A DNA stretch of 50,850 nt from Candidatus Gemmiger faecigallinarum (lineage in GTDB: Bacteria > Bacillota > Clostridia > Oscillospirales > Ruminococcaceae), in contig DWVD01000035.1 of assembly GCA_019120395.1 (NCBI GenBank), positions 1-50,850 on the forward strand. The letters run 5' to 3'. Each line of letters begins with the position of its first letter. The first letter of the stretch is position 1. Position numbers and translations under genes: made by a program. Shown in pieces: positions 19,747 through 37,094 of the stretch. Under the pieces are notes generated by a model. It saw only the letters and a list, made by a program, of their open reading frames with translations. It was not told the origin of the DNA and ran no database searches.

Positions 19747-19781
19747 GGAATGTTCCCTCCTTGTCAGGCGGTTTCCCTCTG

Positions 19782-21385: not shown

Positions 21386-21387
21386 AG

Positions 21388-21864: not shown

Positions 21865-21893
21865 AGTATATACGATATATACACGGCTGTCAA
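21865..21893 (-). promoter_or_regulatory. promoter and operator of the gntR-ABC operon
   Basis: On minus a perfect TTGACA (21888-21893), 17 bases, TATACT (21865-21870). The palindrome GTATATA-CGA-TATATAC (21866-21882) covers the -10 and spacer, a likely GntR site. A further GTGTATATA half-site follows toward 21855. Confidence 0.85.
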
Positions 21894-21943
21894 TAGGGAA
21901 GATCCACTTTTTACAACTGGAAGTTTGGGGCGGAAAAAGGGAA

Positions 21944-21977
21944 CCCCCTGGCTTTCGCCGATGCGAAAGCCAGGGGG
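21944..21977 (-). terminator. terminator after the ABC exporter
   Basis: A 14-bp perfect stem (21944-21957 with 21964-21977, 6-base loop). On minus TTCCCTTTTTCC follows. A second hairpin, CCCGGCAG/CTGCCGGG (21981-21988 and 22000-22007), sits between it and the stop codon. Confidence 0.8.
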
Positions 21978-22014
21978 CGGCCCGGCAGGAAACGATCATC
22001 TGCCGGGAAAAATT

Positions 22015-23625
22015 TTACCGCAGCCGGGTCAGGCGGCCGCCCTCCATGCGGCAGTGGGCGTCATACCGCCCGGCCAGCTCAGGGCTGGGGCGGTGGCTGA
22101 CGTGGATCACCGCGGCGGGGCAGTCCAAAAGCAGCGTCTCGATGGCGCGGGCGGTGTCCGGGTCCTGGGCGCTGGTGGGCTCGTCCAGCAAAAGAACATC
22201 CGGCTGCCCCACCAATGCGCGGGCCAGTGCCACGCGCTGCCGTTCGCCGCCGGAAAGGTTTTGGACGCGCTCCGGCGTCAAGGTCTGGCCATGGTACCGG
22301 GTCAGCAGTTCGTCCAGGCGCAGCGCCTGCACCACGCGGCGGTAGAGCTCCGGGGCAATGTCCCGCCCCAGGCAGATGTTCTCCTCCAGCGTGGCGTAGA
22401 ACAAAAACGGCTGCTGCGGCACCAGGCAAAGGCTCCGCCGCCAGCCCTCGGCACTGCAGGCACGCGCCGGCATGCCGTTGTACCGCATCGCCCCGCCGCA
22501 GGACTCGGCCCCGGAGCGGGCGATCAGGTTCAAAAGCGTGGACTTGCCGCTGCCGCTGCCGCCGGTCACCAGAAGTTTTTCCCCGGCGCCAAGCGTCAGG
22601 GAAATGTCCTGCAAAAGCTGCTCTTTGCCGGCGCGGCAGCCGACCTGGCAAAGCTCCAGCCGCTGAAAGGGCGGCAGGGGAGAGAAGGCCGGGTCGGCTT
22701 TCTGCGTCAGCTGCCGATACTTCTCTGCCAGCGGCCGCGCCTCATTGCGGCGGTGCAGCGAGACGGCCAGCACCTCCAGCGGCGTGCTCATCAGCTGGTC
22801 CAGCTGGATGGCGGCCACCAGCCCGCCTGCCGGGATAACGCCGGCGGCGATCAGCCCCACCCCGGCCAGCAGGATGCCGGCCGTCTTGCCCGTCTGCAGC
22901 AGGACAGTCGCGCTTTGGGTGGTCAGCTGCCAGCGGAACAGCCGCTGTTCGGCCCGGGCAGCCCGGTCGTTCTGCGCTTCCACCGTATGGATGGCATACG
23001 GCCGGCAGCCCAGCGCCTGGATCACGCCCAGGCCCTCCAGCATCGAGTGCAGCACGGTATTGTAGCCGCCCAGCGCCTGGGAATACCCGCTGCGCGCCGC
23101 GCTGCCGCAGCGGCGCAGCATGGCGGGCGCAAGCATCAGCAGCCCGCTGAATCCCAGGCTGAGGACCGCCAGCGACCAGTGCAGCGAGAACAGCGTCCCG
23201 GCTGACAGCAAGATCAGTACGCTGCACTTGACCAGGTCGATCCCGGCGGAAAAATACTGCTGCGCGACGGTGGGGATATCGTTGTTGACAAAGGAGACAA
23301 AGCCGTCGCGCTTTTGGGGCGGGACGGGGCCGCCGGACAGCAAGGCGGCCGCAGCCTTGCTGCGCATCTGCTGCTTGAGCAGCGTCAAAAAGCGGCAGCC
23401 GGCCGCCTGGTCGGCGATGGCCAGCACCGCCTGCGCCAGGCTGACGCAGGCAAAGGCCGCCAGCGCCGGCAGCCCCTGTGCGGGGGAGGCTGACAGCACG
23501 GTATCGATCAGCCGGCCGGACAGGGTGGGCAGAACGGTGCAAACGGCACAGTAAACGGCGCCGACGGACAGCGCCACAGCAAACATGCCGCGGCACTGCC
23601 CCGGCATGATACGGATCGTTTTCAC
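22015..23625 (-). CDS. fused ABC exporter (membrane domain plus ATPase)
   Basis: 536 residues. The N-terminal ~300 residues have six membrane helices of the type I exporter fold. The C-terminal ATPase has Walker A TGGSGSGKST, Q-loop LVPQQPFLFYATLEENI, signature LSGGERQRVALARAL, Walker B DVLLLDEPTSAQD and H-loop VIHVSHR. The start is GTG 23625, with AAGGAGG 7 bases upstream. It is a half-transporter and should act as a homodimer. It is preceded by an 18-codon ORF and by a hairpin that masks its ribosome site, a layout known for drug-inducible transporters. Peptide export is an alternative. Confidence 0.9.
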   Translation of the reverse strand: MKTIRIMPGQCRGMFAVALSVGAVYCAVCTVLPTLSGRLIDTVLSASPAQGLPALAAFACVSLAQAVLAIADQAAGCRFLTLLKQQMRSKAAAALLSGGPVPPQKRDGFVSFVNNDIPTVAQQYFSAGIDLVKCSVLILLSAGTLFSLHWSLAVLSLGFSGLLMLAPAMLRRCGSAARSGYSQALGGYNTVLHSMLEGLGVIQALGCRPYAIHTVEAQNDRAARAEQRLFRWQLTTQSATVLLQTGKTAGILLAGVGLIAAGVIPAGGLVAAIQLDQLMSTPLEVLAVSLHRRNEARPLAEKYRQLTQKADPAFSPLPPFQRLELCQVGCRAGKEQLLQDISLTLGAGEKLLVTGGSGSGKSTLLNLIARSGAESCGGAMRYNGMPARACSAEGWRRSLCLVPQQPFLFYATLEENICLGRDIAPELYRRVVQALRLDELLTRYHGQTLTPERVQNLSGGERQRVALARALVGQPDVLLLDEPTSAQDPDTARAIETLLLDCPAAVIHVSHRPSPELAGRYDAHCRMEGGRLTRLR

Positions 23626-23632
23626 GGAAAAA

Positions 23633-23671
23633 CCTCCTTCTCTGAACGAAAGCAAGACGATTCAGAAAAGG
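23633..23671 (-). promoter_or_regulatory. hairpin masking the exporter's ribosome site
   Basis: In the minus-strand RNA CCTTTTCTGAA (23671-23661) pairs with TTCAGAGAAGG (23646-23636), 11 bp with one G:U, and takes up AAGG of the ribosome site AAGGAGG (23639-23633). Upstream GCCCTCC (about 23683-23677) could compete for the same site. Confidence 0.6.
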
Positions 23672-23727
23672 CTGCCGGAGGGCAGTGCGGTCCCGGAAAC
23701 GGATGTGGAAAAACGGGAAAGCGCGCC

Positions 23728-23784
23728 TCAGGCAGCCTTCCCCATGGTCAGATAAAATACACGCTGGATACGATAGATGTGCAT
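23728..23784 (-). CDS. 18-residue leader peptide or small peptide gene
   Basis: Reads MHIYRIQRVFYLTMGKAA and stops at TGA 23728-23730. AAAGGA stands 7-8 bases before the ATG, a good ribosome site. It lies 102 bases before the exporter. It could be a regulatory leader whose translation opens the exporter's masked ribosome site, or an exported signal/RiPP-type peptide. No modifying enzyme is adjacent, which favours the leader role. Confidence 0.5.
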   Translation of the reverse strand: MHIYRIQRVFYLTMGKAA

Positions 23785-23875
23785 GACAGGGTCCTTTCTG
23801 TAAACAGGAGACGGATAAAACAGCCGATGCGGCAAAACGGCAGGGGGCGGCGGCCGGAAAGCTCCGCGCGGCGTT

Positions 23876-24301
23876 TCAGCCGCGCCGCCACACCATGGTC
23901 AGCTCCGGCTGGCCGGTGTCCGGGTCGACGCCCTCGGCGGCGACGGCAAAGCCCTCCCGCCGGTAAAAGGCTGCCGCGCGGGGGTTCTGCCGGTAGACGT
24001 GCAGCGTCAGCACAGGGTGCAGCGCCTTGCACCGGTCCAGCAGCTGCCGGCCGACGCCCCGGCCGCGGGCGGGACCGTCCACAAAAATGCCGGCCAGATA
24101 ATCCCCCTGCAGGCCGGCAAAGCCCAGCACGGCGCCGCCGGCCTCGTACACGTGCAGTTCGGCCTGCGGCAGCTGCCGCCGCACCTGCGGGGCATTGCCG
24201 GTCCAGTATTCGGCCGGCACAAAGCAGTGGGCCTGCAGGTTGGCGGCCAGCCAGATCTCCATGACCCGGTCCAGGTCGGCGGGGGAAAAGGGTCGCACCA
24301 T
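23876..24301 (-). CDS. GNAT-family N-acetyltransferase
   Basis: 141 residues from MVRPFSPADLDRVMEIW. The acetyl-CoA loop is DGPARGRGVGRQLLD, and HVYRQNPRAAAFYRREGF is the usual C-terminal segment, so a complete compact GNAT domain. ATG 24301 has GGAGG at 7 bases; another ATG at 24307 overlaps the stop of the Lrp gene (ATGA) but is too near the ribosome site. It resembles YjaB/YhfO-type acetyltransferases. Substrate unknown. Cotranscribed with the Lrp regulator. Confidence 0.87.
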   Translation of the reverse strand: MVRPFSPADLDRVMEIWLAANLQAHCFVPAEYWTGNAPQVRRQLPQAELHVYEAGGAVLGFAGLQGDYLAGIFVDGPARGRGVGRQLLDRCKALHPVLTLHVYRQNPRAAAFYRREGFAVAAEGVDPDTGQPELTMVWRRG

Positions 24302-24303
24302 GG

Positions 24304-24753
24304 TCATTCCTCCTCCGGGCGGCTTACCGGCACGCCGCGGTGCTCCACGCAGGTGGAAAAGACGATCTGGGTGTGGGTGCGGCCAAACTGCTGCAGCCGG
24401 TTGATAAAGTGGTCCAGTTCCTGGGTGGAGGCAAACAGCACCTCGATCAGCATGCTGTAATCGCCGGTGACGCAGTTGCACTCCACCACGTTGGGGCAGC
24501 TTTCGATATAGGGGTAAAACTCCGGCTTGCGCTGGGGGTCCAGCTCCAGGTTGATGAACGCCTTGACGCCGTAGCCCAGCGCCGGCGCGTCCACCTGCGC
24601 CTGATACCCCCGCAGCAGGCCCGCCTGCTCCAGACGGGCAATGCGCGCCGACACCGCCGGGGAGGACAGAAACACCTGCTCGGCGATCTCCTTCAGCGGC
24701 GCGCGGGCGTCGGCCTGTAAAATGTCGATGATCCTGCGGTCGATGCGGTCCAT
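24304..24753 (-). CDS. Lrp/AsnC-family transcriptional regulator
   Basis: 149 residues. The N-terminal helix-turn-helix (DRRIIDILQADARAPLKEIA, SSPAVSARIARLEQAGLL) is followed by a RAM/ACT-like ligand domain (about residues 65-140). Proteins of this family sense amino acids. It is first in a two-gene unit with the GNAT enzyme. A start with GAAAGGGG upstream and a promoter 30 bases before complete the picture. Confidence 0.93.
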   Translation of the reverse strand: MDRIDRRIIDILQADARAPLKEIAEQVFLSSPAVSARIARLEQAGLLRGYQAQVDAPALGYGVKAFINLELDPQRKPEFYPYIESCPNVVECNCVTGDYSMLIEVLFASTQELDHFINRLQQFGRTHTQIVFSTCVEHRGVPVSRPEEE

Positions 24754-24782
24754 GCCGAGGCCCCTTTCTCTGTAATAAGGTC

Positions 24783-24811
24783 AGTATAGCACAGCGGCGC
24801 CGCGGGGTAAA
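24783..24811 (-). promoter_or_regulatory. promoter of the lrp-GNAT unit
   Basis: On minus TTTACC (24806-24811), 17 bases, TATACT (24783-24788). Confidence 0.65.
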
Positions 24812-25077
24812 GCGGCGGCTTTGTCCCGGGCGCTGTGGAAAAGTGGAAAATTGCCGGCCGGTTCAAGCCGGGGCGGCCCGGGCAGGCTGCCCCGCAGCGG
24901 AAAGGACGAGCCGCCGTGCAGCCCGCCGGGCGGTTGCGGGAGGCGCGGATCTCCCCGCCCCGGCGGGCCGAAACCGAAAAACGGCGGCCGGGCAGCACGG
25001 CATAGCCGCCGCAGCCCCCGCATACCCATGCAAGAGGATATTTTTTGTCACATCCCGGCAGGGGAGGGGGAGCGTCC
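24812..25077. other. intergenic region before the PBP gene
   Basis: GC-rich with small inverted repeats (GGGCAG/CTGCCC near 24880-24891). It ends in the PBP ribosome site GGGGAGGGGG (25061-25070). No convincing promoter for the PBP gene could be chosen. Confidence 0.4.
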
Positions 25078-26427
25078 ATGAAACCACGTCGAACAAGCCA
25101 GCCCGCGCCGCGGCATATCACGCCGGAGCAGGACCGCCACATGCGCCGCCGTACCAGAGCTTTCTGCCTGGCCATGGCGGCCGTCTGTTTTGGCGTGCTG
25201 CTGGTCCGGCTGTTTGTCCTGCAGGTGCTGGACCCGGAGAGATACGCGGAGCGCGCCGCCGACCAGCAGCTGCGGGATACTGTGATCCCGGCCGCGCGGG
25301 GCGAGATCTACTCTGCCGACGGCACCCTGCTTGCCGCCAGCGAGACCCGCTGGACCATCCGGGCTTCGCCCCGGGACCTGGCCGACGACCTGGTGCAGCC
25401 CGCCGCCCGGGCGCTGAGCGAGATCCTGGAGATCGACTACGAGAAGACTTTGGCGGCTTTTTCCAACCGCACCTCCAACGACTGTCTGCTCAAGCGCCGG
25501 GTGGACAAAGAGACCGCCGACGCGGTGCGCGCCTGGTGCGTGGAGAACGGCGCCGAGGGCATCCAGATCCGCCAGGACACCAAGCGCATCTACCCGGAAG
25601 GCGATTTTATGGGGGTGCTGTTGGGCTTTACCGACGTGGACAACGCCGGTCTGTGGGGGCTAGAGCTGGAGTACGACGACATCCTTACCGGTCAGAACGG
25701 CCGCGTGCTGACCGCCAAGGATGCCTGGGGCTACGACATGCCCCAAAGTTACAGCACGCTGGTGGAAGCCACCCCCGGCGCAACGCTGACCCTGACCATT
25801 GACGCCAATATCCAGCGGTATCTGGAAAGCGCGCTGGCCGCCGCGGTGCAGGAGCACCATGTGGAGTCCCGCGCGGTGGGCATTGTGATGGATGTGGATA
25901 CGGGGGCCATCCTGGCCATGAGCGTCAAGCCGGACTACGACCCCAACGACCCCCGCACCATTGTGGACGAGGAGACCCGCAATACGGTCGACGCGCTGGA
26001 AGGCGAGGCGCGCAGCGAAGCCCTGCAGGCCGCCCAGCAGGCCCAGTGGCGCAACAAGGCGATCAGCGACCTGTACGAGCCGGGCAGCGTGTTCAAGCTG
26101 ATCACCGCAGCGGCGGCGCTGGATACCGGCGCCTGCACGGCGGACAGCCAGTTTGTCTGTTCCGGCTCCATCAATGTGGCGGGGACCCGCTTCCGCTGCG
26201 CCAACGGGCACATCCATGGGCTGGAGACCTTCGCCCAGGGGCTGGCGGTCAGCTGCAACCCCTGCTTTATCCAGATCGGCGCGCGGCTGGGCAAGGAGGC
26301 GTTCTGCGATTATTTCGCCGCCTTCGGTCTGCGGGAGGCCACCGGCATCGACCTGCCCGGCGAGATCGCCAGGAGCGAATATTATACCGCCGATAAGATG
26401 GGCCTGGCACAGGATTTTGGACCATAA
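25078..26427 (+). pseudogene. class B penicillin-binding protein (SpoVD/FtsI type), N-terminal fragment split by a mobile element
   Basis: Residues 1-441 are native, followed by nine foreign codons (residues 442-449 and a stop) read from the element. One membrane anchor (about residues 25-47), the dimerisation/pedestal domain (RGEIYSADGTLLA), and the start of the transpeptidase domain with S337-V-F-K340 in YEPGSVFKLI and S392-C-N394 in LAVSCNPCF are present. The KSGT motif is missing; it lies in the fragment at 36367-37094. Normally such proteins cross-link peptidoglycan in septum or spore cortex. As it stands the product should be inactive. Excision of the element would restore a 683-residue protein. 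The start at 25078 has a strong purine-rich site. Confidence 0.93.
26400..26423. other. left attachment site (attL)
   Basis: GG (26400-26401), seven bases GCCTGGC, then ACAGGATTTTGGACC (26409-26423). The 15-mer is the exact inverse of 36343-36357 at the right end. GGGCC (26400-26404) recurs at 36365-36369. Confidence 0.85.
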
Positions 26428-26627
26428 AAATCAAATGAAGATACGCCGTATTTTTGCGATTTTTCTCGCCGGCCGGCGATCCGGAGCGAAAAAGCGGAAA
26501 AATGTGGCCGCAGCGCCGCTTTCCCGGCGATTGAAATACCCCGGCCAAAGCCCGCATAGTATTTTATGAATGAAGCAGGCCGGCGGGGATGGGCTGCAAA
26601 ACCTGCAAAGGGGGCGTTACGCTGATT

Positions 26628-26741
26628 ATGGGAACACAGTCTGTTACGATCCGTTTCTCCACCGATGACGACGCGCAGTCCCTGACCGCCTGCCTGGAGC
26701 AGCTGCTGAGCCATTTGAACTGGGACCCTGCGGAGGAGTGA
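26628..26741 (+). CDS. 37-residue protein upstream of the recombinase
   Basis: MGTQSVTIRFSTDD... ending WDPAEE, acidic, with a helical centre (LTACLEQLLSHL). It ends 3 bases before the recombinase start and so is cotranscribed. AAAGGGGG lies 14 bases upstream. An in-frame ATG at 26589 would add MGCKTCKGGVTLI, including a CxxC. A weak promoter, TTGAAA (26531) with CATAGT at 18 bases, precedes it. It could be an accessory or directionality factor, but no family is recognised. Confidence 0.5.
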   Translation: MGTQSVTIRFSTDDDAQSLTACLEQLLSHLNWDPAEE

Positions 26742-26744
26742 ACC

Positions 26745-28298
26745 ATGAAGAAAAGCGGGAGCGCCGGCGCGCAGGCCCCGGCGGAGGCGGCCGTCTATCT
26801 GCGCCTTTCCAACGCCGACGGCCCGGCGGCCGAATCCGATTCCATTCAAAATCAGCGCGCCTTTCTCACCGAATGGGCGGCGCGCAATCGCTTCCGGATC
26901 ACGCGGGAGTTTGTGGACGACGGTCATACCGGAACGGATTTCGAGCGCCCCGGGTTTCAGGAACTTGCCGCCTGCCTGATGGACGGCAGCGTGCGGTGCA
27001 TCATCGTCAAAGATCTGTCCCGGCTGGGGCGAAACTATACCGAGACGGGCCGCTATCTGGAACAGATCTTCCCGCGGATGGGCGTGCGGTTCATCGCGGT
27101 GAACGATCAGTACGACTCGGCAAAGAATACCGACAGCGCCCAGCAGATGGCGGTATTCAAAAACGTATTCAATGATTTTTATGCCGCGGACGCCAGTTCC
27201 AAGGTCCGCGCTTCACTGAACATCCTCAAGCGGCAGGGCAAGTTCCTGGCCGGCCGGGCGCCTTACGGGTACCGCATCGACCCGCAGGACAAATACCATC
27301 TGCTGCCGGATGAGGAGACCGCCCCCATCGTCCGGCGGATCTTCGCGCTGTTTCTGGGCGGGGCCAGCCGGACCAGGATCGCCGGGGTCCTCAACCGGGA
27401 AGCCGTTCCGTCCCCGGCGGCCAGCAAAGGACTGACGGACAAAAGCCGGCAGTTTACCGGCCTGTGGAACGCCGAGGCCATCCGCCGCATCCTGTCGCAT
27501 CCGGCGTACCAGGGCGATATGGCGCAGCAGTTTACCCGCACGGTCAACTACAAGGTACACGAACGCCGCCGCGTCGATCCCGGCGAATGGATCGTCGTGC
27601 CGGATACCCACCAGCCGATCGTCAGCAGGGCGGACTTCGCGCTGGCCCAGAAGATGCAGAGCGTCCGTACATATCAAACCACGGACCATCCGCATCTTTT
27701 GACCGGCATTGCCTTTTGCGCGGACTGCGGCAGCCCGCTGTATGCCAAAAAGCGGGGCGGATACTGGTATCTGAACTGTTACGGATACTACCGCGACCCG
27801 ACCATGCATCGCTGCACGTCCCACAGCATCCGGGAGGATGTGGTGGTCCGGGCGGTTCTGGACGCGCTGCGCAGCCTGACAAAAGACAGGGTGGACCCGG
27901 GGGGGCTGGCCCGCGCCAGACTGGGGGCGCAGCAGCAGAAAACGGCCGCAAAAACGATCCGGCACAAGCTGGAGCAACGGCTGGAAAAAGCCCGCCGGAC
28001 CCGCCTGTCCGCCTATAAAGACAAGGCGGCCGGGGTCCTGAGCGAGCGGGAGTTCACCGAAATATCGCAAGCGCTTCGCCAGGAGGAGGAGCAGTGCCGG
28101 AAGCAGCTGGACCGGCTCCGGACGGCGGAGGAGGAAAGCGGGCAGGAACAACTGCTGCAGAAAAAGATACAGGAGTTTTTGCGGTTTGACCATCTGGAAA
28201 AGGCGCAGCTGCAGCAGCTGGTGCGCCGTGTGACCGTGGACAGCCGGAAGCATATCACCATTACGTTTGCCTTTGCAGACCCGGAAAAGACCGGCTGA
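26745..28298 (+). CDS. large serine recombinase
   Basis: 517 residues. The N-terminal resolvase domain (residues ~14-160) has catalytic S22 in YLRLSN, and VKDLSRLGRNYTETGRYLE with the conserved arginines. It is followed by the recombinase domain (PYGYRID, about 170-290) and a zinc ribbon (FCADCGSPLYAKK with a second CTSH pair, about 323-365). A coiled coil rich in Lys/Arg/Glu (about 395-480) comes next. It should integrate and excise the element between short att sites with a 2-bp core. GGAGGAG stands 8 bases before ATG 26745. The strongest hits by eye are the Tn4451 TnpX/Clostridial site-specific recombinases. Confidence 0.95.
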   Translation: MKKSGSAGAQAPAEAAVYLRLSNADGPAAESDSIQNQRAFLTEWAARNRFRITREFVDDGHTGTDFERPGFQELAACLMDGSVRCIIVKDLSRLGRNYTETGRYLEQIFPRMGVRFIAVNDQYDSAKNTDSAQQMAVFKNVFNDFYAADASSKVRASLNILKRQGKFLAGRAPYGYRIDPQDKYHLLPDEETAPIVRRIFALFLGGASRTRIAGVLNREAVPSPAASKGLTDKSRQFTGLWNAEAIRRILSHPAYQGDMAQQFTRTVNYKVHERRRVDPGEWIVVPDTHQPIVSRADFALAQKMQSVRTYQTTDHPHLLTGIAFCADCGSPLYAKKRGGYWYLNCYGYYRDPTMHRCTSHSIREDVVVRAVLDALRSLTKDRVDPGGLARARLGAQQQKTAAKTIRHKLEQRLEKARRTRLSAYKDKAAGVLSEREFTEISQALRQEEEQCRKQLDRLRTAEEESGQEQLLQKKIQEFLRFDHLEKAQLQQLVRRVTVDSRKHITITFAFADPEKTG

Positions 28299-28340
28299 AA
28301 CCCGACGCCATTCTGGCGTGCAGGGCTTCAGCCGGTCTTT
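28286..28340 (+). terminator. terminator overlapping the recombinase 3' end
   Basis: AAAGACCGGCTGAA (28286-28299) pairs with TTCAGCCGGTCTTT (28327-28340), with an inner ACGCCA/TGGCGT hairpin (28305-28319). CCCTTTTTG follows. Confidence 0.8.
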
Positions 28341-28531
28341 CCCTTTTTGCGGGGCGGCAGGGGAGAGCCCCGAAAAGAAAAGTGCCGGAAATACGCAATT
28401 GGGAAGAAATCGATTTTTGGACGCCGGCCCCGCTGTGCCGCAGCTTTGCCGCGGGGGAAGGGGACGGCTGCGGCCGTTACCGCGTTTCCAGGACCCGGCC
28501 GTCGATGGACAGGGTCGTCACCTGCCAGGGA

Positions 28532-28732
28532 ATGCGCTTCCCGCTGGAAATTGTTATTCCTGACGATGCAGATGCGGACAATGTTGTGCACGTCGAATTT
28601 GACAATACTTCCATTCCGTCCACCGGCGGCAGCGGCACCCTGATGTACACCATCGGCGGCGCGGCCATCGTCGTGCTGGCGGGCGTGCTGCTGTTCATTT
28701 CCCGCAAATCCCGTAAGAAGCAGGATCGCTGA
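28532..28732 (+). pseudogene. truncated LPXTG-type pilin, C-terminal remnant
   Basis: The frame preserves only the end of a sortase-assembled pilin: VVHVEFDNTSIPSTGGSGT with the sorting motif IPSTG, a hydrophobic helix (TIGGAAIVVLAGVLLFI) and a basic tail (SRKSRKKQDR). The signal peptide, pilin motif and isopeptide domains are absent. Upstream in all three plus frames nothing pilin-like is seen. The piece starts at about 28545 after unrelated sequence. The ATG at 28532 lacks proper spacing to a ribosome site. Probably the remains of the major pilin of the sortase cassette downstream. Confidence 0.7.
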
Positions 28733-28739
28733 TTCATAG

Positions 28740-28983
28740 CGAGAGCTGCTTGCTCATTTTCTTTCTTTCTATCCTGCCCCGAAGCGGCGGGGACGCCTGG
28801 CGTCTCCGCTGTTTCGGCGGCAGGGGCTTCGCCACAGGCGTACCGCGCCTGCGGCGTTGCTCGTGCCGCCGAACCCCGCTCCCGGCGGGGCCCGGAAGGA
28901 TACCGGGCCGCGGCCGCCGCCAGCCGTGCGGCGCCCGGCCCCCCAACCCATGCTTTGGCGTTTACGCCCAATTTCCACTGCCT
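28740..28983. other. GC-rich gap between pilin remnant and sortase
   Basis: Inverted repeats such as GGGGACGCC/GGCGTCTCC (about 28789-28807) and several GCGCCTGCGG runs occur. The sortase has no visible ribosome site at its end, which suggests sequence loss here too. Confidence 0.4.
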
Positions 28984-29961
28984 ATGCAAAACAACGCTCC
29001 GCAAAACCCGAACCGGCCGGCCAAAAAATCCCGGCGGCCCAGCCTGATCACCGTCGCCATCGTCCTGCTGATGCTGGCGGGACTGGGGATCATGCTGTAC
29101 CCAACCCTCAGCGACCAGTTTGCCCGCTGGCAGGCCGTGCAGGAGATCGCCCAGTACAATCAGGTCGCCGAGGCTGAACAGGCCGATTACTCGGACCTGT
29201 GGGCCGCCGCCGAGGAATACAACCGCCGTCTGGCCGAGACCGGCGCCTTTGCCGGCGCGGTGACCGACGACGGCCAGCCGCAGGACCTGATGGATGTTTC
29301 GCAATACCTCAACCCGCTGGGCACGGGGATGATGGGGTATATCGACATTCCCAAGATCAACGTCCATCTGCCCATCTATCAGGGCACCGAGGAAAAGGCC
29401 CTGCAGGCCGGCGCAGGCTTCTGGATCGGCACCAGCCTGCCCACCGGCGGCCCCGGCACCCACTGCGTGCTGACCGCGCACAACGGTCTGGTGCGCGCCA
29501 AAATGTTCACAGACCTGGACCAGCTGGAAGAGGGGGATACCTTTTCGCTGTCCATCCTGGACCGTGTGCTGACCTATAAGGTCGACCAGATCCTGGTCAC
29601 CCTGCCCGAGGAGCTGGAACCGCTGCAGATCGTCCCCGGCGAGGACTTGGTCACGCTTTACACCTGTACCCCCTACGGCGTGAATACCCACCGCCTGCTG
29701 GTGCGCGGCCGACGCGTCGAGACCCCCGCCACCGCCGAGACGGCCGCCGGCGGCGCTGCCGCAGGGCTGTCGGCGGCTGAGCGCGGCATTTTGCTGGCGC
29801 TGCTGCTGGCCGCGCTGATCCTGCTGGTCTGCGGCGTTGCTGGCGTCATCCGCCGCCTGCGCCGGGCCCGCGGCCGGAAAGACCGGCCCAGGAAACAGAC
29901 GAATCCAACCCGGGAGGAAACGATCGAACAACATGAGGAACGCAAAGACGATAACGCTTAG
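28984..29961 (+). CDS. class C (pilus) sortase
   Basis: 325 residues. An N-terminal membrane helix (LITVAIVLLMLAGLGIMLYP, about residues 19-38), lid-like region, sortase barrel with H166 (LTAHNGL), catalytic C228 (TLYTCTPYG) and R241 (RLLVRG), and a second C-terminal membrane helix (about 265-287), typical of pilus-polymerising sortases. It should join pilin subunits by their LPXTG-like motif. ATG 28984 has no Shine-Dalgarno, unlike its neighbours, so translation may be poor or the start displaced. The gene overlaps the next by 29 bases. Confidence 0.9.
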   Translation: MQNNAPQNPNRPAKKSRRPSLITVAIVLLMLAGLGIMLYPTLSDQFARWQAVQEIAQYNQVAEAEQADYSDLWAAAEEYNRRLAETGAFAGAVTDDGQPQDLMDVSQYLNPLGTGMMGYIDIPKINVHLPIYQGTEEKALQAGAGFWIGTSLPTGGPGTHCVLTAHNGLVRAKMFTDLDQLEEGDTFSLSILDRVLTYKVDQILVTLPEELEPLQIVPGEDLVTLYTCTPYGVNTHRLLVRGRRVETPATAETAAGGAAAGLSAAERGILLALLLAALILLVCGVAGVIRRLRRARGRKDRPRKQTNPTREETIEQHEERKDDNA

Positions 29962-30877
29962 CGGCCTGCTGGCCCTGGCGCTGGCCCTGATGCTGGCCCT
30001 GATGCTGGCCCTGCCGGCCGCGGCCGCGGGCGGCGCAAGCCTGACCCTGTACCACGAGCGGGAAAACGTCCGCTTTGACCTGTACCATGTGGCCGCCGAG
30101 GCGGACGCCGGGTGGCAGCCCACCGACGACTTTGCAGCCTACCCGGTGGAGCTGCCCGGCGAGGACAGCACCGCCGCCGAGTGGCGCGCCGCCGCCGAGA
30201 CGCTGGCCGCGTACGCCATGCGCGACAGCCTGGAGACGGCCGCCTCCGACCGGGTGGCGGGCGGCAGCGTGCGCTTTTCGGCGCTGGAAGAGGGGCTGTA
30301 TCTGGCTGTGGGCGAGACGGTGCGGCAGGACGACATGATGTATCTGCCGGTGCCTGTCCTGATCCACGTGCAGGGCGACACGGTGGTGACGGTCAAGGCC
30401 GAGGAGGCCGCCGTGGAACCGGAACCGGTGGAGTACCGCGCCGTAAAGGTCTGGCAGGGCGGCGACTCCCGCCGGCCGCTGAGCATTACGCTGCAGCTGC
30501 TGTGCGACGGCAGGCCGGACCGCACCGTGACCTTGAGCGCCCTGAACGGCTGGAGCTGCACTTGGACCTCTGAGCCTGGCCACCTGTGGCAGGTGACGGA
30601 GGAAAACTGCCCCGAAGGGTTTGCCGTGTCGGTGGAGCAGGAAGGGCAGATCTTTACCGTGACCAACACCTGGCAGGAAAGCCCGCCGCCGGCAGGGACG
30701 GAGCAGCCCGGCCAGCCGGGCGGGACGCCCGCCCCGGGCGCGCCGGCAGGCGGGAGCCTTCCCCAGACGGGCCAGCTCTGGTGGCCGGTGCCGCTGCTGC
30801 TGGCGCTTGGCGTGATCTTTGTGGGCGTCGGCTGGCTCCGCACCCGCCGCAAGCGCAAAAACGACCATGAAAGCTAA
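29933..30877 (+). CDS. LPQTG-anchored Cna-type surface protein (minor pilin/adhesin)
   Basis: 314 residues. Signal peptide (MRNAKTITLSGLLALALALM..., cleaved near PAAAAG) with an unusually repetitive Leu-Ala core, two Cna_B-like domains (about 35-155 and 160-250, the second with VKVWQGGDSRRPLSITLQL and VTNTW at its end), a Pro/Gly spacer, then the sorting signal L276-P-Q-T-G280, hydrophobic helix and RTRRKRKN tail. GGGAGG is 15 bases upstream of ATG. It sits between two sortases and is probably a substrate of one of them. Confidence 0.88.
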   Translation: MRNAKTITLSGLLALALALMLALMLALPAAAAGGASLTLYHERENVRFDLYHVAAEADAGWQPTDDFAAYPVELPGEDSTAAEWRAAAETLAAYAMRDSLETAASDRVAGGSVRFSALEEGLYLAVGETVRQDDMMYLPVPVLIHVQGDTVVTVKAEEAAVEPEPVEYRAVKVWQGGDSRRPLSITLQLLCDGRPDRTVTLSALNGWSCTWTSEPGHLWQVTEENCPEGFAVSVEQEGQIFTVTNTWQESPPPAGTEQPGQPGGTPAPGAPAGGSLPQTGQLWWPVPLLLALGVIFVGVGWLRTRRKRKNDHES

Positions 30878-31442
30878 CGCAAAACATACCAGCGTATGGA
30901 CGTCCGTCGGGCTGCTGCTGATCGCGGCGGCCCTGCTGCTGTGCGCCTATAACATCTGGGACAACGGCCGGGCGGCGGCCGGCACACAGAAGATCCTGTC
31001 CGCCATGCCCGGGGCAGAAACGCCGGCCGGGGAGGCGCCCGCCGATGAAATGCCCACCGTCTGGATCGACGGCAACGAGTATATCGGGACGTTGGATTTC
31101 CCCGCGCTGGGGCTGACCCTGCCGGTCATGGCCGACTGGGACTACGACAAGCTGCGGATCGCTCCCTGCCGGTACGCCGGGACCACGGCGGGAAATCTGG
31201 TGATCGCCGGGCACAACTACCGCAGTCATTTTGGCCAGCTGGATACCCTGCAGCCCGGCGACGAGGTGCGCTTTACCGACGCGGAGGGCAGCGTCCTGAC
31301 TTACCGGGTGGCGGAAACCGAAGTCCTGTCGCCCACGGCCATTGAGGAGATGACCGGCGGCGACTGGGACCTGACGCTGTTCACCTGCACCCTGAGCGGC
31401 CAGACCCGCCTGACGGTGCGATGCTCCAGACAAACAGAATGA
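30867..31442 (+). CDS. second sortase
   Basis: 191 residues with one N-terminal membrane helix (about 11-30) and the sortase triad H116 (AGHNYRSHF), C174 (LFTCTLSG) and R185 (LTVR). It lacks the second membrane helix of pilus sortases, so it is closer to class B/D housekeeping or anchoring enzymes. It overlaps the previous gene by 11 bases (ATGAAAGCTAA) and is followed by a terminator. A division of labour with the class C enzyme (polymerise, then anchor) is likely but inferred. Confidence 0.87.
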   Translation: MKANAKHTSVWTSVGLLLIAAALLLCAYNIWDNGRAAAGTQKILSAMPGAETPAGEAPADEMPTVWIDGNEYIGTLDFPALGLTLPVMADWDYDKLRIAPCRYAGTTAGNLVIAGHNYRSHFGQLDTLQPGDEVRFTDAEGSVLTYRVAETEVLSPTAIEEMTGGDWDLTLFTCTLSGQTRLTVRCSRQTE

Positions 31443-31446
31443 CCTG

Positions 31447-31484
31447 CAGCGCAGGCGGCCGAAAAGCTGCCTGCGCTGATTTTT
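31447..31484 (+). terminator. terminator of the sortase operon
   Basis: CAGCGCAGGC (31447-31456) pairs with GCCTGCGCTG (31469-31478), with extra GC pairs inside. ATTTTTG follows. Confidence 0.85.
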
Positions 31485-31819
31485 GTTGAGCAAATAGTCG
31501 AAAATATATTCCACAAATGCAGTGCGGCGATTGGGCGATCTCGGCAGGGGGGTTCAACGCTTTATCTATCGAGAGTAACAATACAACGCGTTTCACACCC
31601 TGCCGCCTGCCGCCGCAGGTTCACCATATTTATATCCCCGCCGCAGCGGGCGGCGCGCTCCGACAGAATATACCAAAGTTTTACGCAGATATGACCGCGG
31701 CATGGTTTCGCGCCGGGCAAATCCCCGGTATCATAGTTTTTAGATGGCGGTCCATGCCCGCGGCTGATACCGGAGCGCCCGGGCCCTGACCGCCCCGCAA
31801 CAGTAAAGGAGTGGATTTT
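31485..31819. other. 335-bp upstream region of the giant surface protein
   Basis: Holds a candidate promoter, TTTCGC (31706-31711), 17 bases, TATCAT (31729-31734), and the ribosome site AAAGGAG (31805-31811). The rest is non-coding. No operator is evident. Confidence 0.5.
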
Positions 31820-34800
31820 GTGAAACGCAAACCCGGTTTGACCAGACCGATGGCGCTGCTGCTGTCGCTTTCGATGGCGGCGGGCGTTTTGCCGACGCCG
31901 GCCCTGGCCGCGCAGGCGGACCAGCCCGCCGCGGTCCAGGCCGCGACGCCGGAGCGGGCGGCCCCCGCGGCGGCTGCGCCGGAAACGCCGACCGAACAGG
32001 AAACCGCAGAGACCGCTGCGACGCCTGCCCCTGTGCAGGAACCCGCCGCCCCGCAGGCCCTTGCGCTGCAGCCGCAGACGGCCGAGACGCAGCAGCAGAC
32101 CGCCCCGCAGGAAGGAGATACCATCACCATTGACGGCGTCCAGTACGAGGTGACCGGCCTGCCCGCCGAGAATGCCAGCGGCGAGCTGACGCTGACCGAC
32201 GGCACGGCTTACAGCGGTGCGCTGGTGCTGGCGGACGGTGTCGAGTATGCCGGCGGCAGGTACAATGTGACCGAGCTGGCAGACGGGGCGTTCAGCGGCA
32301 ACACGGCGCTGACTTCCGTCGATATGACCGACAGCAGCGTCAAGTCCATTGGAAGAAACTGCTTCCGGGACTGCACCGCGCTGACCAGCGTGCAGTTTGC
32401 GGCGGATACGGTCACCAACATGCAGAAAGCGGGCGTCTTTTCGGGATGCACCAGCCTGACCCGGCTGAGCATCCCGGCGGTGAACCTGTCCAGCCGGTAC
32501 AACAACAGCCCCTTTGCCGGTTCCAGCATCCAGGAACTGACGATTTATAACGTCAGCGGCACGGGCATCCAGGCGAACCTGCTGAACAACATGCCGGACG
32601 GCTTTACGCTGAACCTGCCGGGCGACATCAGCAGCACCGCGCTGGCGGCTGCCACCTTTGGCAGCACCAAAAATGTTACCCTTAACCTGGGCGTCCAGGA
32701 GGATGTGGAGCATTACGCCGCAGTGTTTGACGGCAGGGACGTGAAAGTCCAGCTGCTTGGCGGCGAGGAGGGCGCGTTGGCCACCGTTACGGACAGCACC
32801 GGCGCCATGACCGGCTATGCCACGCTGAACGACGCGATCGCGGCCATCAATGAGTCCGAGGACGCGGGGCCGTTCCAGATCCGCACCGCCAGCAGCGGCA
32901 GCACGCTAATCGAGTGGGCGGGCGACGTGGCGCCCAACAAGGCCACCGTCATCAACTTTGCCGGCGCCAGCGTGGATCTGCCCGATACCCTGACGCTGCA
33001 AGCGCCGCTGACCATTGAGAACATCACCAACATCAACCCGGACGAGGATACGCTGACCACCCTGGTCGCCGGCGACTACGCCTTTGCTATGGTGGACGGC
33101 GGCAGCTTTGGCTTTGCCGAGATCCGCGGCAGCGACCTGACTTTTGACGAGCAGCTGCCCGGCGGCAGCTTCGGCGGCGGCCGGCAGGTACAACTGACCG
33201 GCGTCGGCGACGGGGCGACCGTCACCTTTGCCAATGTGGGCCGCAGCGACTATTATTACGACCTGCCCAATCTGTCCGGCTTTGAGACGGTGGTGCTGGA
33301 CGGGGCCTATCTGGAAGCGGACGGCGGCGAGGCCTTTCAGGGACAGTTGGGCGATGCGGCCGAAGTGGTGCTGCAGGATGGCGGCCTGACGGTGAACCGG
33401 GCCGCTGAGATCGAGACGCTGTCCGGCAGCGGCGAACTGCGCATTGCCGACGGCGCGGCGCTGAAAGTCACCGGCAGCGCCTTTGGCAGCTTCCGGCTGG
33501 CCGGGTTTGAGGGCACGGAACTGACCGGTTCCGGCCTGAGCCTGCCCGCAGACAGCGAAGTGTCGCTGACCAATGCGAACGGCGAGCCGGTCGCCATCCC
33601 GGAACCCGCCGTCCGCGTGGAGGGCCTGGGCGAATACGTGTCCATGGCGGACGCCTTTGCCGCGATCGCCGCAGGCGCTGCGGACAGCTATACCGTCACG
33701 CTGCTGGACGATGTGGCGCTGGAAGCCAACGCCGTTTCCGGCGCGTATGACGTGGTGGAACTGCCTGCAAAGGCGCTGACCATCCAGGGCGGCGGCCACA
33801 CGCTTGCTGCCGGCGACAGCCGAACCCGCAACTACGTGTATGCGGCGGCCGACCTGACGCTGGACAACGTGGAACTGAACATGCCCAAAACCTATCTGCG
33901 CATCACCGGCGAGGGGGCCGCGGTCACGGTGGAGGGCACGGTGACCGGCACGCTGGAGAAGATCGACGCCAGCGTTTCCACCGGCTGCACGGTGCGGGTC
34001 AAGGCGCCGGTGAGCGACGATGTGATCGACGGCATTGCCGGAACCAGCAAAAACAAGATGACTGTGATCCTGCAGGGCTACGGCAGCCTGGAGGCGCCCG
34101 CCGGCAGGACCGCTTTCCCCGCGGTCAGCAACAGCAGCGGAGCGCTGGTGCTGGAAAACTCCTGGCTGGTGGCCGACAACGCCGCCAGCTGGGGCGCCAT
34201 TGAGGTGCGCCAGGGCGGCGGCCTGTCGCTGACCGGCAGCATGCCCAACGCCAGCGTGAAGGGCTGGCAGGTGGCCGAGGGCGTCACCGCGGATCTGACC
34301 GTCAAGAGCGGCAGGCTGACCATCAACGGCCAGGTCTCCGGCAGGACGCAGATCCATTTCTCCGGCAGCCAGATGGCGGCCGAGGGCGCGGTGCTGGTCA
34401 AGGCCGCCAAAGGCGCTTTGGACTCCTTTGTCCTGGCACAGCCGCTGGAGGGGCTGGCGCTTTTGCCTGACGCGGACGGCAATTACACCCTGATGCCGGT
34501 GACGGTGGAAAACCCGGTCGTTACCCTGAGCGGCGGCAGCTTCGGCAGCGGCATCCAGTTTGCCAGCTGGCAGGAGGCTGCGGCGGCGCTGGAAAAGGCG
34601 GACGGCAGCGCCGAAACCTGCACCGTTACGCTGAACGCCGACCTGACCCTGCCCGCAGCCACCGCTCTGCCCGACGTGGCGCTGGTGTTTGACGGCGGCG
34701 GCCACACGCTGGCGCTGGCCGAGGGCGATACCCTGAGCGTTCGGAACTCGCTTACCCTGCAAAACGTCGCGCTGGATATGGGCGGCGCCACACTGAAATA

Positions 34801-36175
34801 CATTCGCAGCGGAAGCGGGGAGAAGGCCATCACCTTCGCGGAGACTGCCAGCGGCAGCGTTGGCAGCATTGCGGATGTTTCCGGGTCCCGCTGGCTGGAT
34901 ATTGTCTTTATGAGCGACGGGGTGTCGTTTGGCAAAGTCACCGGCACCACCAGCAGCATCGGCACACGGCTGACCGACCTGATCCTGACCGGCTTTGGCA
35001 GCCGGGAGGAACCGGTCGACCTGGCCGGAAAGGTGGAAAACATTGCTGGCCTGGAACTGAACGGCAGCTGGGTCGCCGCATCGGGCGACGCCACATACCT
35101 GGGCACCATCCGCACCGATTCCGACAGGACCGGCGGCCTGGTGCTGACCGGCGACGCGACGGTGTCGCGGCTCTCGGTTACGACAAACGACGCCTTTGAA
35201 GTCTGGGTGCCCGCCGACGCCACGCTGACCGTGGAGGAACGGTACAGCCATTCGAACCAGCAGGTCCCGGTCTATGCGGACGGGCAGCTGACGGACGGCC
35301 ATGCGCTGGTGGCTGCGCCCCGCAACAGCAACCGGAATATGACCGATTACCTCCTGGTCAATGCGCCCGAGGGCGTTGAGCTGTACTGGGATGCGGACAC
35401 GCTGACCTACCGGGTCAACTGCCCGCCTGTGGTCGCCATGTCCGCGGATGCGGAGCAGTATGGCGATGCGTACACAAAAGTGCTGCTGGACCTGAGCGAC
35501 GCCCAGGGGATCGCCTCGGTGACGGTGAACGGCCGGCAGGACGCTGCCTGGCAGCCCGGCGAGACCGCCGGTGTCTATGCGCCGGATGTGAGCCTGCTGG
35601 TCCAGGGCGATAACGCGGTCACCGTCACAGACGCCGCCGGCAAGTCCACCACGTTTGCCTTCCGCTATGACGCCCCCGCCGATTACAGCAAGGTGGAGGA
35701 AGCCCTGGCCCGGGTCCCCGCCGACCTGACCGGTTACACCCCGGAGAGCGTCCGGGCGCTGCAGCAGGCCGTGGATGCGGTGCAGTACGGCTTTGGCCGG
35801 TCCGGGCAGGAAAAGGTGGACGCCATGGCGCAGGCTATCCTGGACGCCATTGCGGCGCTGGAGCCTGTTGAACCGGGCACCGACCCCAACCAGCCGACCG
35901 ACCCCGACCAGCCGGGCGGCGGTTCGGAGCAGACGCAGCAGCCGGCTGCCACGCCGGGCAGCGAGCATCCCGAGATCGCGGAGGCCATTGCAAACGGAAC
36001 CTGGGGCCAACCCCAGTCCACACCCGCGCCTACCGCTGCGCCCGGGACGCAGGCCGTAACGCCGGCTGTGCCCCAGACGGCGGACGCCGCCGACCTTGCG
36101 TTGTGGGCGGTGCTTGCGGCGCTCTCGCTGGGCGGCCTGGCCGGACTGGTCCTTCTGCGCCGCCGCGGCAGATAA
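31820..36175 (+). CDS. giant cell-wall-anchored surface protein (1,451 residues)
   Basis: The start is GTG 31820, 8 bases after AAAGGAG; the GTG at 31811 overlaps that site. Signal peptide (RPMALLLSLSMAAGVLPTPALA, about residues 9-31), a Pro/Ala/Gln-rich linker, then a BspA-like leucine-rich part (about 110-260: VTELADGAFSGNTALTSVD, SIGRNCFRDCTALTSV). Long beta-helix-like repeats (about 330-1190) with recurring GGGHTLA and LTLQNV/LTLDNV segments follow, then an Ig-like segment and a FIVAR domain (about 1285-1355). A Thr/Pro/Gln spacer and the variant sorting signal V1417-P-Q-T-A1421, membrane helix and RRRGR end it. Likely adhesin or glycan binder; substrate of the local sortases. Confidence 0.88.
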   Translation: MKRKPGLTRPMALLLSLSMAAGVLPTPALAAQADQPAAVQAATPERAAPAAAAPETPTEQETAETAATPAPVQEPAAPQALALQPQTAETQQQTAPQEGDTITIDGVQYEVTGLPAENASGELTLTDGTAYSGALVLADGVEYAGGRYNVTELADGAFSGNTALTSVDMTDSSVKSIGRNCFRDCTALTSVQFAADTVTNMQKAGVFSGCTSLTRLSIPAVNLSSRYNNSPFAGSSIQELTIYNVSGTGIQANLLNNMPDGFTLNLPGDISSTALAAATFGSTKNVTLNLGVQEDVEHYAAVFDGRDVKVQLLGGEEGALATVTDSTGAMTGYATLNDAIAAINESEDAGPFQIRTASSGSTLIEWAGDVAPNKATVINFAGASVDLPDTLTLQAPLTIENITNINPDEDTLTTLVAGDYAFAMVDGGSFGFAEIRGSDLTFDEQLPGGSFGGGRQVQLTGVGDGATVTFANVGRSDYYYDLPNLSGFETVVLDGAYLEADGGEAFQGQLGDAAEVVLQDGGLTVNRAAEIETLSGSGELRIADGAALKVTGSAFGSFRLAGFEGTELTGSGLSLPADSEVSLTNANGEPVAIPEPAVRVEGLGEYVSMADAFAAIAAGAADSYTVTLLDDVALEANAVSGAYDVVELPAKALTIQGGGHTLAAGDSRTRNYVYAAADLTLDNVELNMPKTYLRITGEGAAVTVEGTVTGTLEKIDASVSTGCTVRVKAPVSDDVIDGIAGTSKNKMTVILQGYGSLEAPAGRTAFPAVSNSSGALVLENSWLVADNAASWGAIEVRQGGGLSLTGSMPNASVKGWQVAEGVTADLTVKSGRLTINGQVSGRTQIHFSGSQMAAEGAVLVKAAKGALDSFVLAQPLEGLALLPDADGNYTLMPVTVENPVVTLSGGSFGSGIQFASWQEAAAALEKADGSAETCTVTLNADLTLPAATALPDVALVFDGGGHTLALAEGDTLSVRNSLTLQNVALDMGGATLKYIRSGSGEKAITFAETASGSVGSIADVSGSRWLDIVFMSDGVSFGKVTGTTSSIGTRLTDLILTGFGSREEPVDLAGKVENIAGLELNGSWVAASGDATYLGTIRTDSDRTGGLVLTGDATVSRLSVTTNDAFEVWVPADATLTVEERYSHSNQQVPVYADGQLTDGHALVAAPRNSNRNMTDYLLVNAPEGVELYWDADTLTYRVNCPPVVAMSADAEQYGDAYTKVLLDLSDAQGIASVTVNGRQDAAWQPGETAGVYAPDVSLLVQGDNAVTVTDAAGKSTTFAFRYDAPADYSKVEEALARVPADLTGYTPESVRALQQAVDAVQYGFGRSGQEKVDAMAQAILDAIAALEPVEPGTDPNQPTDPDQPGGGSEQTQQPAATPGSEHPEIAEAIANGTWGQPQSTPAPTAAPGTQAVTPAVPQTADAADLALWAVLAALSLGGLAGLVLLRRRGR

Positions 36176-36201
36176 AATGACCGTATAAGCGGATACCATA
36201 C

Positions 36202-36242
36202 AAAAGCCGCCGTACCGGAAATCCCGGTGCGGCGGCTTTTTT
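36202..36242 (+). terminator. terminator of the surface protein gene
   Basis: AAAAGCCGCCGTACCGG (36202-36218) pairs with 36224-36240 (one G:T), 5-base loop, ending in TTTTTT. Confidence 0.9.
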
Positions 36243-36342
36243 GGATCAGTGCGGGGGCGGCCTGCGGGGGCACTGGCAAATCCGGGCCTGCCGCAGGGGC
36301 AATGGGCCAAACCGGCGAATACCGGCTGCGCCTGAGCGGCGC

Positions 36343-36369
36343 GGTCCAAAATCCTGTATCAGGCGGGCC
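36343..36369. other. right attachment site (attR)
   Basis: GGTCCAAAATCCTGT (36343-36357), seven bases ATCAGGC, then GG (36365-36366) and GCC of the PBP gene. A mirror image of the left end. Confidence 0.85.
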
Positions 36370-37094
36370 CGGTGGAGCTGGCCAGCTGTTCTTTCGGGCA
36401 GAGCAGCAAGGTCAGCTATCTGCAGATGCTGACGGCGGTGTCGGCCATCGTGAACGGCGGCAGGCTGATGCAGCCCTATGTGGTGGCCGGGGCGGAGGAC
36501 GCCGACGGCGTGACGCTGTGGGAGACTGCGCCCACTGTGAAAGCGCAGGTCATCTCGGAGGAGACCTCCGCCACCATGCGCACGCTGATGGAGGGCGTTG
36601 TCACCGACGGCACCGGCAAAAATGCGGCGGTGTCGGGCTACCGGGTGGGCGGCAAGTCGGGGACCAGCCAAAAACTGGACAGCGAGGACGCCAGCGCCCG
36701 CATCGCCAGCTTTGTGGCGGTGGCGCCCATCGACGACCCAAAGCTGGCGGTGCTGGTCTGCCTGGACGAACCCCACAGCTGGACCACCTCCGGCGGCGCG
36801 CTGTCCGCCCCGGTCTGCGCCGAGGTGCTGGAAAAAGCGCTGCCGTACCTGGGGATCGAACCGCATTATACCGAGGCGGAGATGGAGAAGCTGTTTGCCC
36901 AGGTCCCCGACGTGACAGGCTGGCGCACCGGGGCCGCCGCGCTCAAACTGAAGGAGTACGGGCTGGAAGCCCATATCGACGGCGACGCCGAGCGGGTGGT
37001 GGCCCAGTATCCGCTGGCCGGCGTACAGGTGCGCAAAGGCTCGGTGGTGTTCCTGGACACGACGGGGCAAAACGACCCGACGCTGGACGAGTGA
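36367..37094 (+). pseudogene. class B penicillin-binding protein, C-terminal fragment
   Basis: Continues the gene begun at 25078. It reads PVELASCSFGQSSKVSYLQM straight after the crossover, then the transpeptidase remainder with KSGT (residues 538-541 of the restored protein) and one PASTA domain (VPDVTGWRTGAAALKL to VRKGSVVFL) at the C-terminus. It has no ribosome site or start of its own; a GTG at 36372 is only the native valine codon. No stops or frameshifts have built up, so the split is recent or the gene is still used after excision. Confidence 0.93.

Follow-up and report, generated by a model that had tools for sequence, protein, structure and literature searches.

A serine-recombinase segment splits a SpoVD-type penicillin-binding protein gene in Gemmiger and its relatives and may be excised during sporulation

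The DNA analysed here (the window) is a stretch of 50,850 nucleotides from Candidatus Gemmiger faecigallinarum (assembly GCA_019120395.1, contig DWVD01000035.1, our contig C13), part of a 2.58-Mb draft genome that is 82.9% complete with 5.3% contamination and whose closest named relatives are Gemmiger. Within it, a gene for a class B penicillin-binding protein (PBP) is interrupted after codon 441, that is, cut at codon 442, by a segment of 9,965 bp (the core shared by both ends being counted once) that encodes a large serine recombinase. Both pieces of the gene have open reading frames, and between them they hold the PBP_dimer domain, the transpeptidase motifs and the PASTA part of a class B transpeptidase. 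Read from 5′ to 3′, the segment presents a sigma-E-like promoter motif, an open reading frame (ORF) of 37 codons, the recombinase gene and then genes for sortases and surface proteins, to which we refer as cargo. The features are as follows, in window coordinates.

25000..25029, + strand: sigma-E-like motif of the split PBP gene (GCATAGC, 13-nt gap, GCATACCCAT)
25078..26400, + strand: 5′ part of the SpoVD-type class B PBP gene, 441 aa (PBP_dimer, first part of the transpeptidase domain, SxxK, SxN)
26400..26423: left attachment site (attL), made of the core GGGCC (26400-26404) and the left inverted-repeat arm (26402-26423)
26534..26563, + strand: sigma-E-like motif of the operon of small ORF and recombinase (AAATACC, 13-nt gap, GCATAGTATT)
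26628..26741, + strand: small ORF of 37 codons directly 5′ of the recombinase, a candidate recombination directionality factor (RDF)
26745..28298, + strand: large serine recombinase, 517 aa (Resolvase, Recombinase and Zn-ribbon domains)
28382..28732, + strand: short ORF with an LPXTG anchor, 116 aa, cargo
28984..29961 (start codon unsettled), + strand: class C sortase, cargo (250.7 bits against a cut-off of 160, with the frame taken from 28930)
29933..30877, + strand: surface protein with Cna_B domain, cargo
30867..31442, + strand: second sortase, cargo
31811..36175, + strand: BspA-type leucine-rich-repeat surface protein, 1454 aa, cargo
36343..36369: right attachment site (attR), made of the right inverted-repeat arm (36343-36364) and the core GGGCC (36365-36369)
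36372..37094, + strand: 3′ part of the SpoVD-type PBP gene, 240 codons (rest of the transpeptidase domain, KSGT, then PASTA)

The core GGGCC is common to both ends of the segment, and the ends form a 22-nt inverted repeat (26402-26423 and 36343-36364) that is 91% complementary. This repeat flanks the core as in the attP sites of serine integrases, which are symmetrical around their core. Such symmetry has been described for serine integrase sites (PMC5595907). The predicted empty site codes for M-G-P-V-E-L, and intact relatives have the corresponding arrangement: the match to the left half stops at residue 441, six bases follow, and then the match to the right half starts. One of them, locus L070, encodes an intact protein of 683 aa, the left half of which is 95% identical to that of the window. 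In L070 (9903-16011, compared with 19036-26407 of the window) the intact PBP gene is inverted relative to a block of transporter and regulator genes. The window thus combines attachment sites with inverted repeats around a short core, a serine recombinase, and an in-frame split that removal of the segment would restore exactly; all of these are marks of an intervening element, and the same cut recurs in 14 genomes.

The link between this recombinase and the split gene turned out to be strict. A protein search of 197 genomes of the family with the window recombinase at a strict limit detected it in seven, in each case adjoining the same PBP gene cut at the same residue. A wider search, covering 396 family genomes with a recombinase alignment, found the subfamily at more than 700 bits in at least 12 genomes, a lower bound because no more than a few candidates were scored in each genome; the next best recombinase reached 477 bits. 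All 12 recombinases above 700 bits adjoin a half of a split PBP gene, and no PBP half lies within the 17 kb fetched around the 477-bit protein. Altogether, 14 genomes possess a left half, the recombinase and a right half with the same cut and the same design of attachment sites: G000 (the window genome), G054, G151, G137, G025, G197, G198, G012, G130, G200 (under which G297 is counted, its contig agreeing in number and length), G243, G230, G329 and G341. A cut at one and the same codon in 14 genomes exceeds what chance would produce, even if the genomes may represent fewer than 14 species (synonymous divergence, dS, of the left half is only 0.075 between G198 and G243). In G012, G130 and G200 the PBP halves lie on separate contigs, and two of the 14 are single-contig assemblies (G243, and G341 with a nested insertion). 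In a fifteenth genome, G199 (locus L077), the left half is cut at the same place and the contig ends 2.4 kb further on without a recombinase; the right half was not found in that genome. A contig of G012 (contig 19, 17.9 kb, locus L055) carries the left half and recombinase twice in inverted orientation, perhaps as an effect of assembly.

Junction DNA was compared for 14 of the 15 left ends (all but that of G341) and for all 14 right ends, and at every right end the DNA completes the reading G-P-V-E-L that follows the methionine. In all 14 genomes, the stretches compared in the two halves contain no stop codon and retain SxxK, SxN and K[S/T]GT; for G198, G243 and G341, the right half was compared over its first 165 codons. 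A longer right-half match in G198 crosses a TAG near residue 175, which is near the end of intact Gemmiger formicilis genes; in several relatives the PBP ends before the PASTA part. In a scan of public genomes that used the left half as query, the top 80 of 198 loci were retained. These include 46 distinct loci (at least 58% identity; duplicate contig L095 dropped) in the group of Gemmiger, Faecalibacterium, Anaerofilum and Fournierella, of which 35 are intact and align across the join and 10 are cut, while in L092 the contig ends inside the gene. The cut loci belong to Gemmiger, Fournierella and one unnamed member of Oscillospiraceae; among these 46, none labelled Faecalibacterium or Anaerofilum is cut. 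L081, L082, L085, L086, L093 and L076 resemble plain empty sites.

Both halves are, as judged from substitution ratios, under purifying selection, just as in intact relatives. Four genomes (G137, G025, G230 and G329) share a colinear 12-kb segment with 75-86% DNA identity (relative to G137 over the 12 kb, 84-85% for G230 and G329, and 75% and 86% in two blocks for G025), and therefore the split predates their divergence. For four pairs among them, the ratio of nonsynonymous to synonymous substitution rates (dN/dS, NG86 method) is 0.035-0.085 in the left half and 0.069-0.139 in the right half. Nine split pairs gave 0.027-0.113 (left) and 0.043-0.164 (right), compared with 0.043-0.172 and 0.041-0.254 for nine intact pairs, so that no relaxed selection on the split halves is seen between these two sets. 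The recombinase tree and the PBP tree agree at the genus level; thus, the recombinase shows no sign of having moved between these groups, as judged from a recombinase tree of 10 rows with three of seven inner branches open and a long-branch warning on the deepest join. Within Gemmiger, split and intact states are intermixed, with at least seven changes on the 41-row PBP tree, and therefore loss, gain or both must have been frequent.

These results agree with much of what the original prediction had read from the window. That a recombinase segment lies inside a PBP gene and that its excision would restore the frame exactly is borne out by the site and by the homologues; SxxK and SxN indeed lie to the left of the insertion and KSGT to the right; and the two fragments, said not to have decayed, are open and appear to be under purifying selection. 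The intact gene, for which it proposed to compare related genomes, is the prevailing state among the clade loci. The description of an adhesion-cargo element of about 10 kb holds for the segment itself (9,965 bp), but among the cargos examined adhesion genes were found only here.

The sequences upstream of the gene and of the recombinase suggest when the segment might be excised. The sigma-E consensus is kmATATT-N14-CATACAnT, and the aligned PBP upstream regions contain two CATA boxes about 20 bp apart that fit it. Scored against this consensus in a stretch of 140 nt with a threshold of at least 5, PBP upstream regions reach the threshold in 31 of 43 clade loci (dinucleotide shuffles: mean 0.46, maximum 3), and other genes of the same loci do so in 3 of 450 cases. 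For the recombinase operon the motif was found in 7 of 10 elements (shuffles: mean 0.15, maximum 1), a count that is not fully blind, because the rule was set after the PBP regions and some recombinase regions had been viewed. With the rule already fixed, four genomes fetched later all had the operon motif, at 5.5 in a 270-nt stretch; they are not independent lineages, as they fall into two pairs, one close to G025 and the other to G198. Overall, 11 of 14 elements have the operon motif. Sigma-E-like motifs precede both the gene and the recombinase operon in this genome and many relatives, which suggests activity in the mother cell during sporulation. In B. subtilis, spoVD, spoVE and spoIVCA are under sigma-E (PMC517825). 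In all 14 elements, a short ORF of roughly 37 to 60 codons, with starts unsettled, ends near the recombinase start or overlaps it, and ten aligned small ORFs have a leucine-rich centre in common. This ORF may encode the directionality factor; the RDF of the C. difficile skin element is also small (53 aa, PMC10747680).

The split gene looks SpoVD-type. The window genome has a second PASTA-type class B PBP (locus L159, contig C118), which sits in a dcw cluster behind genes that we take to be MraZ-, RsmH- and FtsL-like, and which probably serves division. With the SpoVD model (TIGR02214) the intact homologue L070 scores 533.6 bits, its best family, versus 430.1 bits for this dcw paralogue. The best solved structure for the intact homologue of the split gene is SpoVD (7rcz, 405 bits, the next reaching 183), the structure search having been run for this homologue and not for the dcw copy. 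A SEDS-family gene lies 3′ of the right half in G137, G025, G012 and G130 (Pfam PF01098 shown for G137); the G137 protein scores 338.2 with spoVE and 332.0 with ftsW, a near tie, and two dcw SEDS proteins favour ftsW. Presumed murA- and ftsZ-like genes come next in G025 and G130, and a presumed murE-like gene lies 5′ of the PBP gene in G012 and G130. Because the curated SpoVD score is missed, we use the label SpoVD-type and not equivalog. The split gene probably acts in sporulation.

Sporulation in these bacteria would be consistent with part of their gene content. Spo0A and SpoIVA domains are above cut-offs in 30 of 30 genomes scanned, split and intact, and each of them is above cut-off in 1 of 14 control genomes. 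Both domains are present also in four genomes of Faecalibacterium, a genus usually called non-spore-forming. The Ruminococcaceae have been reported to include both spore formers and former spore formers (PMC8340488); the word Gemmiger is absent from the main text of that paper.

Taken together, the locus is best read as a skin-like segment intervening in a sporulation gene, whose excision in the mother cell would restore spoVD; we put the probability of this reading at about 0.72. In a growing cell, the gene would be split and silent, and division would depend on the separate PBP of the dcw cluster. After commitment to sporulation, mother-cell sigma-E would transcribe the 5′ part of the PBP gene together with the operon of small ORF and recombinase. 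With the small ORF product probably acting as its directionality factor, the recombinase would then join attL and attR at the GG core, the segment would leave as a circle, and the full SpoVD frame would be rebuilt for cortex synthesis. As the mother cell dies, the germ line would keep the segment, which could therefore gather chromosomal genes without harm. The excision itself and its timing are what we infer from the features of the locus.

A number of observations weigh against such a role in the mother cell. Neither the rebuilt junction nor the circle junction occurs in the window's own assembly, an absence expected for an intervening element and for a passive island alike. Gemmiger and Fournierella are described as non-spore-forming genera. 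In 28 of the 30 genomes a sigma-E-type protein is found at 306-343 bits (no match in G199 and G217), in none of them above the curated cut-off of 348.6, and the same model also matches non-spore-forming controls below the cut-off. The SpoVD equivalog cut-off of 688 bits is reached by neither L070 nor the dcw copy; the dcw homologue L117 of Clostridium sporosphaeroides, at 618.8 bits, is under it as well. All SEDS scores, that for spoVE included, are below curated cut-offs. Outside the group, the loci most similar to the split gene (33 of them: L115, L117-L119 and L121-L149) adjoin dcw-type genes, and thus descent alone cannot separate SpoVD from a division PBP. The operon motif is absent in 3 of 14 elements (G197, G012 and G130), and the six PBP upstream regions on the Fournierella side (G137, G025, G230, G329, G012 and G130) all score below 5. 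Transcription from the PBP promoter might serve the operon in G012 and G130, where the operon starts about 50 bp inside attL; the best site of that promoter is weak in them. The split occurs patchily, and L070, the closest sister, has an intact gene. More distant split pairs have dN/dS up to 0.344, at dS near saturation. The recombinase of G341 is interrupted near residue 90 by some 66 kb of inserted DNA, but the two PBP halves of this genome remain sound.

Four further loci do not fit easily. In L072, L073, L087 and L120 an intact PBP gene is followed by genes that otherwise lie inside the segment of G151, G200 or G197, largely in the same order and without a recombinase, so that the 3′ half and the cargo are swapped relative to split relatives. 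We considered them as simple excision products and rejected this, as simple excision does not explain the change of order, which also counts against excision from the gene as the whole story. Re-entry of the circle just 3′ of the PBP gene would account for these loci; neither the exact motif TTTTGGAC nor its complement occurs in any of the four.

The same locus might instead be a plain serine-integrase island whose attachment site is a conserved codon in a PBP gene that the cell can do without and that the island inactivates, with rare and unregulated excision and with relatives lacking the element as empty or cured sites. The patchy distribution with close relatives intact, the cargo that differs between lineages and the canonical integrase attachment sites are all what such an island would show. 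On the other hand, it leaves unexplained why split genes have dN/dS values like those of intact ones, including in the group that was split before its divergence, and why 11 of 14 elements have a sigma-E-like motif in front of the recombinase operon. Nor does an island sit well with the lack of recombinase transfer between genus-level groups in the 10-row tree, or with the lack of conjugation and phage structural genes among the window's element proteins. Among plasmid and phage collections the best matches are below 60% identity, on which ground we rejected a phage or plasmid origin, and viral contigs yielded no relative to a query able to detect only close ones. We therefore regard an island, although it is the main rival, as unlikely. 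Another candidate, an SCC/Ccr element, was rejected, as the CcrB model gives 90.5 bits for the window recombinase against a cut-off of 900.

Serine integrases can re-integrate a circle at attB, and accessory cargo could be selected. Both points would suit a reversible PBP-on/PBP-off phase switch in growing cells, the meaning that the original prediction gave to the locus. This idea found no support: a separate dcw PBP is present, SpoVD is the better match for the split gene, and the type of promoter motif together with the SpoVD character points to sporulation. Moreover, the assembly contains no circle and no empty junction, and the carriers, at least 12 among 396 genomes, were all assembled split, which makes a phase switch quite improbable. 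It is even harder to believe that the two halves work as separate polypeptides without excision. Purifying selection on both halves would follow naturally, but the cut falls inside the transpeptidase domain and the strict recombinase link would be left unexplained. Finally, the draft state of the window genome might raise suspicion of an assembly artefact or a binning chimera. The same junction in 14 genomes, including the two single-contig assemblies and named isolates, for example Gemmiger gallinarum DSM 109015 and Fournierella massiliensis DSM 100451, makes this explanation next to untenable.

The cargo of the segment is lineage-specific, which rules out a conserved cargo as its function; likewise, the adhesion genes of the window are not part of the mechanism, because other lineages hold quite different genes. 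In the window, the sorting-signal end is the sole recognised part of the ORF at 28382-28732, which may be a remnant of a larger surface protein. A PHROGs scan of six element proteins of the window found no phage structural or replication genes; the recombinase matched an integrase family, and the other five matched nothing or families without assigned function. An Rfam scan of the window gave no match at gathering score. Elsewhere in the window genome (contig 78, 44313-47361) there are two more serine recombinases in tandem, 32-34% identical to that of the window. The cargo of other lineages is known from a partial Pfam scan (ten proteins per scan, not all cargo), with approximate gene coordinates. 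It comprises, in G151, a starch/glycogen-synthase-type enzyme, SfsA, HypA and CobW/HypB-type proteins, a sulfatase and GH3; in G137, the EIIA, EIIBC, enzyme I and HPr components of a phosphotransferase system (PTS) and CutC, with close copies in G025; in G197, PTS, an M16 peptidase and a UDP-glucose/GDP-mannose dehydrogenase; and in G054, a CRISPR CT1975-type protein (L150, 15648-16541, minus strand). The segment of G054, which the mother cell is predicted to discard, may thus contain a CRISPR system. The halves are 10 kb apart in the window, 12 kb in G137, G025, G230 and G329, 21 kb in G151 and G198, 25 kb in G197, 27 kb in G054, 29 kb in G243 and about 81 kb in G341, where the nested insertion is included. 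This insertion of about 66 kb (G341 contig 1, approximately 2613377-2679820; loci L205 and L215-L217) bears further serine recombinases. We also considered that an essential cargo makes excision terminal and dropped the idea, as G137 and G025 each have two more homologues of PTS enzyme I (42% and 37%).

If the segment is excised as proposed, the consequences reach beyond a single gene. For a gut lineage that is not usually counted among the spore formers, purifying selection on the split gene together with a sigma-E-like motif on most recombinase operons is evidence that a mother-cell programme is still used, which bears on how these gut anaerobes spread between hosts. The locus would also be a case of chromosomal genes gathering in a segment that may be discarded in development. 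A wider reading, which we offer tentatively and would not yet bet on, is that Gemmiger and Fournierella, labelled asporogenous, keep a working mother-cell programme that needs a chromosome rearrangement for the cortex, and that the spoVD split serves as a germ-line gene vault storing growth genes (ptsHI, glycogen synthase, CRISPR, capsule, adhesins). A segment discarded only in the dying mother cell would mean that mother cell and spore differ in gene content.

The likeness to the skin element in sigK or SPbeta in spsM, already pointed out in the original prediction, is supported. The skin element of sigK, in B. subtilis and C. difficile, also codes for its own site-specific recombinase, and its excision is confined to the mother cell (PMC5025042, PMC517825). 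In C. difficile the RDF of skin, CD1234, is under sigma-E and SpoIIID (PMC5025042), and in B. subtilis spoIVCA belongs to the sigma-E regulon (PMC517825). Skin is present in some strains only (PMC10747680), a patchiness resembling that found here. It differs in its target, sigK; here the target is spoVD-type, the integrase is the only phage-type gene recognised in the window, and the RDF is a candidate. The SPbeta prophage in spsM (PMC4191935), as well as vfbin in spoVFB and yin in yabG (PMC10747680), are likewise recombinase-bearing DNA and split sporulation genes that are rebuilt by excision. The three are described as prophage or prophage-like, and they have other target genes; only one strain is reported to carry yin (PMC10747680), while the spoVD-type split is found in 14 genomes. 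In titles and abstracts of the papers listed by the literature searches, mostly outside subscription papers, no element in spoVD is reported. The named elements of this kind, as far as the cited texts extend, split a gene for a sigma factor, a regulator, a protease, polysaccharide or dipicolinate. Closest in kind is gin, in gerE of Bacillus cereus ATCC10987: it is a non-phage element with a serine recombinase and an added factor, a sporulation gene is rebuilt precisely, and the recombinase is expressed in sporulation (PMC5595907). The target of gin is a regulator gene of 225 bp in a Bacillus host, and it has three recombinases (PMC5595907). In contrast, the segment described here has one recombinase subfamily, splits a cell-wall synthase gene in several gut genera and carries lineage-specific chromosomal cargo. 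What is new is thus a peptidoglycan synthase gene as the target, a new group of hosts and a cargo that is not of phage type and differs from lineage to lineage.

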